Source of the DNA: Syntrophorhabdus sp. PtaB.Bin027
Lineage (GTDB): Bacteria; Desulfobacterota; Syntrophorhabdia; Syntrophorhabdales; Syntrophorhabdaceae
Length of the DNA: 64,000 nucleotides
Direction of reading: 5' to 3'
Assembly: GCA_002067585.1 (NCBI GenBank)
Contig: MVQO01000214.1
Span: 1-64,000, forward strand
Below are positions 23,677 to 59,540 of the stretch, in pieces (position 1 is the first letter of the stretch; each line of letters begins with the position of its first letter). Both the position numbers and the translations under genes were made by a program. The notes under the pieces were generated by a model. It made no database searches. It was not told where the DNA came from and saw only the letters and a list, made by a program, of their open reading frames with translations.

Positions 23677-23713
23677 AAGAACCTGGAGTATTTGGTTTTT
23701 CCTCCAGGTTCTT
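23677..23713 (+). terminator. Rho-independent terminator after alpha/beta hydrolase
   Basis: AAGAACCTGGAG (23677-23688) pairs perfectly with CTCCAGGTTCTT (23702-23713). T-rich sequence follows on the plus strand and A-rich sequence on the left, so it can serve both converging genes. Confidence 0.85.
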
Positions 23714-41619: not shown

Positions 41620-42066
41620 CTAAAAGGTTTTACTCTTGGGGCGAACTGTTAGCACGGGGCAGGGTGACTTCCTGACCACCTTTTCCGCAACACTTCCAAT
41701 GAGGATGTGTTCTATACCGCTCCGGCCATGAGTACCCATCACAACAAGATCAATGCCCTGTTGTTTAATGTAGTCAATGATTTCAACAGAGGTTACCCCG
41801 GTTTTAATTATTCTTTTAAAAGGAAAATCGAGTTTTTTAGTAATCTTGTCAAAATCCTTTCCTACCTCTCCTTCAATATTTCTTTCAATTGCCACTAGGT
41901 TTTCAGGGGTGAGGAAGGATTCGTAAGGGGTGAAATAGCTAAGGTTTGGTATGACATGAATCAGGTGGAGCTCTGAATCAAAACGTTTGGCAATAATTTC
42001 AGCATAAGAAAGTATTTCGTCTGTAAACTCTGAAAAATCAACAGGGCAGAGTATTTTCTTAAACAT
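41620..42066 (-). CDS. Universal stress protein (UspA family)
   Basis: The 148-residue product has a UspA fold with the ATP-binding pattern VMGTHGRSGIEHILIGSVAEKVVRKSPCPVLTVRP (written here in two parts: VMGTHGRSGIEHILIG and SVAEKVVRKSPCPV). Start is ATG 42066 behind AAGGAGGTTCTT. It converges with the Rrf2 gene and diverges from rpoD. Confidence 0.92.
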   Translation of the reverse strand: MFKKILCPVDFSEFTDEILSYAEIIAKRFDSELHLIHVIPNLSYFTPYESFLTPENLVAIERNIEGEVGKDFDKITKKLDFPFKRIIKTGVTSVEIIDYIKQQGIDLVVMGTHGRSGIEHILIGSVAEKVVRKSPCPVLTVRPKSKTF

Positions 42067-42152: not shown

Positions 42153-42182
42153 TTGACAAAATCCCCTTGCCATTGCTATACT
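42153..42182 (+). promoter_or_regulatory. Promoter upstream of rpoD
   Basis: TTGACA (42153-42158) and TATACT (42177-42182) are 18 bases apart. The predicted start near 42189 gives a leader of about 75 bases that contains a long hairpin. Confidence 0.78.
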
Positions 42183-42210
42183 TAATAGCAGTTGGATAAA
42201 GCATATCAAT

Positions 42211-42253
42211 AAATGTAAAAAATGCCCTTAGGAAAAGGGCATTTTTTACATTT
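42211..42253 (+). promoter_or_regulatory. 17-bp perfect hairpin in the rpoD leader, candidate attenuator
   Basis: The 17 bases at 42211-42227 pair without mismatch with 42237-42253; the loop is TTAGGAAAA. The right arm contains six T in a row after GGGCA, so it resembles a Rho-independent terminator placed between promoter and rpoD. The only ribosome-like GGGG (42255-42258) lies immediately downstream of the stem. Confidence 0.75.
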
Positions 42254-42264
42254 CGGGGTCATAA

Positions 42265-43779
42265 ATGAGCGTAAAAAATTTCACAGAAATAAAACACCTT
42301 GTGGACATGGGGATGGAAAAGGGTTACCTTACCCCAGACGAAATAAATGATGTTCTTCCTCAAAATCTTTTTTCTCCTGAGGACATAGAAGACATATTCG
42401 ATTTTCTCACAGAGTCAAACATCGATATTGTCGACACAATGAAGGAAAAGACTGAAGCCCCTGCAGAGGAAAGCCAAGAATGGGGAGAAAGCGAGCGATT
42501 CCCCTCCGAGAGAGCTGACAACATTATCTGGGCTTATTTAAAGGATATTGGTAGGGTGTCTCTTCTCACCTCTGATGAGGAGTTCATGATAGCAAAAAGA
42601 ATTGAAGAAGGAGAAAGGAAAACAAGAAATCTTCTCTTTGACCTGCCTTATGCGATCAGGGAACTCCAGGAGCTTGGGTCGCTCATTAAGAAAGAGTCTA
42701 TAAATATCATCGATGTGGTCAAGAATATCGATGAGATGAACTACACGAAAAAAGATGAGGAGAAATACAAGAAAAAAACCCTTTCTTTAATTAATACTAT
42801 CAAGTCTCAATTCGAAAAAAAACAAGAATTCCGCAAATCAGTTCCCAAGGGTGATGAAGCTGCCAAAAAACAAATTGAAAGAAAGATTAAAGGTACAGAT
42901 CAAAAGATCGAGGAATCCTTATCAAACCTTAACCTGAACAAGAAGGTTCTTGAAGAGATGATCAGGAGAATGACAAAGCAGGTTCGCTACCTTGACGATA
43001 AAGAGGCAAAGACGATAAGGAAAAGACTTAATGAAATCAGTGAAATTGAAAATAGCCTTAAGATAGTCAAGAACAGGCTTATTCAGGCGAATCTTCGCCT
43101 TGTTATCAATATCGCCAAGAAGTACCTTAACAGAGGGCTATCCTTTCTTGATTTAATACAGGAAGGCAACATGGGGCTTATGAAAGCTGCCGAGAAGTAT
43201 GATTACCAGAAAGGCTATAAATTTTCAACATACTCCACATGGTGGATCCGTCAGGCCATAACTCGTGCAATAGCAGATTATGCAAGGACGATTAGGGTGC
43301 CTGTCCACGTCCTTGAAACAATGAACAAGATCACGAAAGTAACTATATCCCTATATCAGGAATTGGGAAGAGAACCCAACCTTGAGGAGATATCCAATAA
43401 AGCAGGGCTCCCCCTGGAAAAAGTTCGTAAAATTATGAAGGTTTCCAATGAACCAATTTCAATTGAGACGCCTATTGGCGATGATGAGTCCAAACTTGGA
43501 GATTTTATCGCTGACCCAAAATCACCCTCACCCTTCATGGAGCTTGTTGGTATTTCCCTAAAGGAGGAGATTGACAAAGTCCTTTCCACGCTCACCCCAA
43601 GGGAGGAGAAGGTCATCAAGATGAGGCTTGGTATTGGAGAAAAGACTGATTACACCCTGGAGGAAGTGGGCGAGGTTTTTGGCCTCACAAGAGAGAGGAT
43701 TCGTCAGATTGAGGCGAAAGCACTCCGTAAGCTGAAACATCCATCTCGTAGAAAGAGGCTCGAGAGCTTTCTTGAATAA
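42265..43779 (+). CDS. rpoD: RNA polymerase primary sigma factor RpoD (sigma-70)
   Basis: The 504-residue product has region 1.1 ([20 protein letters not shown]), region 1.2 ([18 protein letters not shown]), region 2 ([37 protein letters not shown]), region 3 and region 4 ([20 protein letters not shown]). All housekeeping motifs are intact. The leader hairpin at 42211-42253 is unusual. The usual dnaG neighbour is missing upstream. Confidence 0.96.
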
Positions 43780-59503: not shown

Positions 59504-59540
59504 AATACCTTGGGGGGGGGTATACACCCCCCAAGGTATT
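59504..59540 (-). terminator. 14-bp perfect hairpin upstream of excisionase-like gene
   Basis: AATACCTTGGGGGG (59504-59517) pairs with CCCCCCAAGGTATT (59527-59540). It may end transcription from upstream genes or sit in the leader of the excisionase-like gene. Confidence 0.7.

Follow-up and report, generated by a model that had tools for sequence, protein, structure and literature searches.

A hairpin with an embedded T run in the short leader of a sigma-70-type gene of Syntrophorhabdus sp. PtaB.Bin027 is probably a cis-acting premature intrinsic terminator, that is, an attenuator through which a factor would control the second group-1-type sigma gene of this organism. The gene lies in a 64,000-nucleotide stretch of DNA that was analyzed as a whole (hereafter the window). 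The order of promoter, hairpin, ribosome-binding site, and start codon recurs among relatives, as does a fixed distance from the hairpin to the ATG; the stem shows covariation and is under purifying selection, and the element is nearly confined to the window sigma gene and its paralogs.

Layout of the leader and identity of the sigma gene

The leader opens with a TG-extended sigma-70-type promoter on the + strand (42153..42182), comprising a TTGACA -35 box (42153-42158), an 18-nt spacer, and a near-consensus TATACT -10 box (42177-42182); with a promoter-scan score of 11/12, it is the top-scoring match within 5 kb. From the position of the -10 box, transcription is predicted to start at 42188-42190 or thereabouts, giving a transcribed leader (42189..42210, + strand) that runs up to a hairpin beginning approximately 28 nt past the -10 box. 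Folding and covariation place the 5' arm of the stem at 42211..42229, with the core TGCCCTT at 42223-42229, followed by the loop AGGAA (42230..42234), which was identified by folding and varies in length and sequence among relatives, and by the 3' arm at 42235..42253, which has the core AAGGGCA and contains a T6 run (42242-42247) as the predicted termination zone, all on the + strand. The arms pair perfectly over 19 bp (AAATGTAAAAAATGCCCTT, 42211-42229; AAGGGCATTTTTTACATTT, 42235-42253). A Shine-Dalgarno (SD)-like GGGG (42255..42258, + strand), represented by GGAG or GGGG in most relatives, begins 1 nt past the stem, and the sigma ATG is at 42265. The predicted folding energy of the leader is -27.7 kcal/mol (z = -4.4), a stability reached by none of 200 shuffled sequences. 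An intrinsic-terminator hairpin with its U run is thereby interposed between promoter and start codon, as in an attenuator.

The original prediction, of a TTGACA/TATACT promoter followed by a perfect stem with a T run, could be located coordinate by coordinate, with one small correction: the stem is perfectly paired but is two pairs longer than the 17 bp first given. The attenuator geometry proposed at that time is borne out at the level of sequence by the order of promoter, terminator, SD, and ATG and by the conserved, covarying stem. A transcription start beyond 42253 would bypass the hairpin, but the 11 nt from there to the ATG appear to leave no room for one, and no conserved promoter is found there. 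A near-leaderless start from a TACATT within the stem was also considered and was rejected, since TACATT is not conserved and the SD is.

The universal stress protein (Usp) gene upstream (41620..42066, - strand) is divergent from the sigma gene, as is the nearest upstream gene in most relatives, and the hairpin therefore cannot serve an upstream gene. The gene that follows the sigma gene is convergent.

A simple terminator scan missed the hairpin, whereas a wider scan, run over 401 kb of PtaB.Bin027, recovered it as one of 34 terminator-like sites, its core being of middling energy (rank 21/34). The arrangement as a whole is rarer: the 328 open reading frames (ORFs) in these 401 kb gave 13 loose matches, with the window site as the only clear case of promoter, terminator, SD, and ATG in succession. 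Two other strong hairpins in the window (23678-23713 and 59505-59539) have the look of ordinary terminators, the first being readable on both strands.

The sigma gene (42265..43779, + strand) encodes a protein of 504 amino acids that Pfam, NCBIfam, phmmer, and a tree assign to the group-1-type sigma-70 factors; it carries regions 1.1, 1.2, 2, 3, and 4 (Pfam) and keeps the -10 and -35 recognition residues, RQAITR among them. The canonical dnaG-linked rpoD was rejected as host gene of the hairpin. That gene (L149, 4914-6473) lies on another contig (C123), directly after dnaG and without the hairpin, and in the PtaB.Bin027 genome its residue corresponding to sigma70 Thr440 is Ala. A tree of 88 proteins, one of them a distant sigma factor (L003) on a very long branch, separates the clade of the dnaG-linked RpoDs (support 98) from that of the window sigma family (99).

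Across the same ten genomes, the mean identity of the window sigma is 85.6%, versus 63.6% for the dnaG-linked RpoD, and the window sigma is the more identical of the two in 45/45 genome pairs. Such slow evolution suggests that housekeeping falls to the window sigma, which may be a second, slower-evolving group-1-type sigma that has taken over housekeeping in Syntrophorhabdaceae. The designation "primary sigma factor" given to it earlier is uncertain, since the dnaG-linked rpoD is another gene, even though the window sigma evolves more slowly than that one; the two-sigma arrangement raises the question of which sigma is the housekeeping one in this family. Region 1.2 in the window sigma family departs from the usual DPVRMYLREMG type, and the window sigma aligns over its full length with the MzaA sigma model NF041931, at a score below threshold (378 bits; cut-off 800).

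Conservation and selection in Syntrophorhabdaceae

All readable leaders of window-type orthologs in the Syntrophorhabdaceae, an anaerobic family, consist of a strong promoter, some 20-50 nt, a hairpin with a T run, an SD, and an ATG, and the same order is found in several paralogs, down to approximately 60% protein identity. In a set of 48 leaders, which includes close relatives, 46 have, at a comparable distance, a promoter scoring 10/12 or more, and all 48 have at least five T within 10 nt past the core; the end of the GGGC core lies 20-26 nt from the ATG, and the SD 5-8 nt before it, in every leader. Core letters are replaced in two leaders of the family (L015 and L009), which retain both the pairing and the T run, and three order-level relatives (L056, L059, and L121) have a different hairpin sequence in the same place, again with the T run kept. 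The hairpin is conserved at orthologous genes independently of the upstream gene, as expected of an attenuator. Most of the relatives are represented by draft assemblies from metagenomes, and the PtaB.Bin027 genome is itself a draft; a close ortholog is absent from the assemblies of 4/37 family genomes. Some paralogs have lost the hairpin or have a degraded one. The protein search also matched acidobacterial sequences, which appear to be ordinary RpoDs lacking this leader.

Several genomes (G003, G004, G014, and G016, among others) each carry several more window-sigma paralogs (L116-L147; 50-75% identity); the leader hairpin is present in many of them and degraded or missing in some. At approximately 70-100 nt before the start codon, one paralog group (L067, L068, and L070) carries a terminator-like hairpin unrelated to this one, with GGCAGGC..GCCTGC followed by TCTTTCTCTTTTT.

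In an anchored alignment, 14 of 18 stem pairs have changes on both sides, the kind of compensatory change in relatives that had been put forward as a check on the hairpin, and the stem itself is conserved. The covariation score of the stem is 0.264, compared with 0.167 for shuffled alignments (0/500 reaching the observed value), and slid controls are all lower. Because the alignment has anchored arms and an N-padded loop, the pair counts lean somewhat towards structure; shuffles, slid controls, and the raw alignment of one genus (g5) nevertheless agree with covariation. In the eight leaders of that genus, the 5' arm (10/10 columns) and the 3' arm with the U run (14/14) are invariant throughout (24/24), as is the -35 box (6/6), versus 5/29 columns in the leader (17%), 3/12 in the loop (25%), and 11/99 third codon positions (11%). 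Invariant arms and U run beside a freely varying leader and loop are, in sequence terms, the pattern of a selected terminator.

A covariance model of the hairpin matches only the window site in the PtaB.Bin027 genome. Its strong matches in relatives precede window-type sigma genes or their paralogs, and two leaders outside the training set (G035:C145 and G039:C33), found by the model, also precede window-type sigma genes. Matches in relatives away from sigma genes score low, and the ones examined resemble ordinary terminators.

Proposed premature termination and alternative explanations

In the mechanism that we propose, which would resemble that of the rimP-nusA and greA/GraL leaders, RNA polymerase would start at the strong promoter at approximately 42189, make about 20 nt of unstructured leader, and then transcribe the GCCC/GGGC hairpin and U run, where a fraction of the complexes would release an RNA of some 55-60 nt lacking the SD; the SD and the sigma mRNA would come from read-through complexes only. 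As only one promoter is visible, no transcript would contain the SD unless polymerase had passed the terminator. Sigma output is therefore expected to follow read-through, and the sigma level is probably set by how often RNA polymerase escapes from the stop, as predicted from sequence. Read-through would in turn be set by a trans-acting factor on the elongation complex, be it one resembling NusA or NusG or, under autogenous control, the level of sigma itself. We infer a trans-acting factor, rather than an alternative RNA fold, from the lack of a conserved antiterminator.

The RNA switch entertained in the original prediction did not survive the comparison of leaders. Their sequence is hardly more conserved than third codon positions, and no conserved alternative pairing that would sequester the 5' arm was found (mean 0.35, versus 0.36 in shuffled leaders). 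No leader peptide is conserved among the 48 leaders: the ORFs that begin at ATGs in the stem are unrelated and mostly tiny, and where a possible start codon (ATG, GTG, or TTG) close to the hairpin shares the sigma frame, as in approximately one-quarter of leaders, it does so by chance. An Rfam search of the leader gave nothing over the cut-off, the weak matches being low-complexity hairpins. None of the conserved features by which a riboswitch, T-box, or leader-peptide attenuator would be recognized as a two-state switch, whether antiterminator, aptamer, or leader peptide, was found.

Their absence is also what would be expected of a fixed partial terminator that answers to no signal or regulator and merely scales down a strong promoter, giving constant output or less noise. 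The core hairpin, being of middling strength, could be leaky and unregulated, and a strong promoter is always paired with the terminator. A weaker promoter would achieve the same more cheaply, however, and the arms, U run, and ATG spacing have been kept over long divergence, and we regard an unregulated terminator as unlikely. The short RNA from the same promoter that was envisaged earlier is implied by any premature terminator, the promoter and terminator necessarily yielding an RNA of about 60 nt, and in Escherichia coli greA/GraL does both (PMC6829880); that a GraL-like trans-acting RNA is the main product, with the sigma mRNA as its read-through, is nevertheless very improbable, as the sequence that might pair with a target is almost unconserved within the genus (17%), and the loop likewise, leaving no sign of a seed.

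Slighter still is the chance that the hairpin is no terminator and acts after transcription, by protecting the 5' end, as an RNase III site, or as a gate on access to the SD. The stem does end 1 nt before the GGGG in PtaB.Bin027, ATG spacing is fixed, and in several lineages covarying pairs extend the base of the stem past the U run (outer pairs 5-10 exceeding the shuffles), but this extension is lineage-specific, and the T run is present in 48/48 leaders, even where the stem sequence has been replaced. The perfect palindrome in PtaB.Bin027 scores on both strands, as would a repressor-bound DNA site or an ordinary terminator of upstream or antisense transcription. This explanation is largely contradicted, and we give it almost no weight: usp is divergent here, as is the upstream gene in most relatives, which leaves no + strand gene to read into the hairpin; the loop differs in length among leaders, which sets it apart from an operator; and the A run on the opposite side falls to 2/10 while the T count on the sigma side is never below 5/10. 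Since the T run is always kept and the A run is not, the terminator should act on the sigma strand, and a minus-strand terminator is not conserved.

A bolder form of factor-dependent premature termination would make the hairpin an autogenous attenuator of the acting primary sigma: the second sigma would have displaced the dnaG-linked RpoD from housekeeping and would feed back on its own level by way of termination close to the promoter. The sensor would be sigma retention, or the loading of NusA, on the elongation complex at an early stage, and no RNA switch would be involved. We offer this as speculation and consider it quite unlikely in full.

Comparison with known leader terminators

Control of primary-type sigma genes is usually described at the level of the promoter or the operon. 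In E. coli, the internal terminators of rplL-rpoBC and rpsU-dnaG lie within operons and set the levels of RNA polymerase subunits or sigma; these are intergenic, whereas the window terminator is in the first leader of the sigma gene. The classic attenuators, riboswitches, and ribosomal-protein leaders (e.g., trp and T-box) share with the sigma leader premature termination in the 5' leader, regulated in those systems and putatively so here, but neither an antiterminator nor an aptamer nor a leader peptide is conserved among the window-type leaders. Among titles and abstracts on sigma- and polymerase-gene leaders in the open-licence literature, none that we found describes attenuation of a primary sigma gene, and the words sigma and rpoD are absent from the main text of a 2010 survey of premature terminators (PMC2965389); as only open-licence papers are covered, this is weak evidence of novelty.

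The rimP-leader (RF01770) of the rimP-nusA-infB operon is a conserved short terminator without an antiterminator, for which a response to NusA is suspected (Naville and Gautheret 2010, PMC2965389). It resembles the sigma leader in being a short hairpin with a conserved GC core and a U run near the start codon, in a core transcription operon and with no visible antiterminator. Its core is GGGC..GCCC, however, the reverse in polarity of the GCCC..GGGC in the sigma leader, and the gene downstream of the window hairpin is a sigma factor; the RF01770 covariance model does not match the window leader and found nothing over its cut-off in the genomes searched, which places the leader outside this family. 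Just before rimP in PtaB.Bin027, a GTGGG-CTTGA-CCCGC-TTTTTT hairpin can be seen by eye (L258, approximately 1914-1935, G000:C199) that is rimP-leader-like and below RF01770 detection.

The E. coli greA leader has a terminator approximately 20 nt past the start site that yields RNAs of 49-59 nt, terminating about two-thirds of transcripts and letting one-third read through, with feedback by the encoded RNA-polymerase-binding GreA (PMC6829880). In both leaders a promoter is followed by an intrinsic terminator shortly past the start site, here as predicted from sequence. They differ in that greA starts approximately 90 nt past its terminator and the window sigma gene approximately 12-20 nt, their sequences are unrelated, and GraL also acts in trans; the window gene, encoding a sigma-70, does not belong with greA/GraL. 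A conserved leader terminator would provide a simple system for testing feedback that needs no RNA switch, and would set the sigma gene beside nusA and greA as transcription-machinery genes controlled by early termination.
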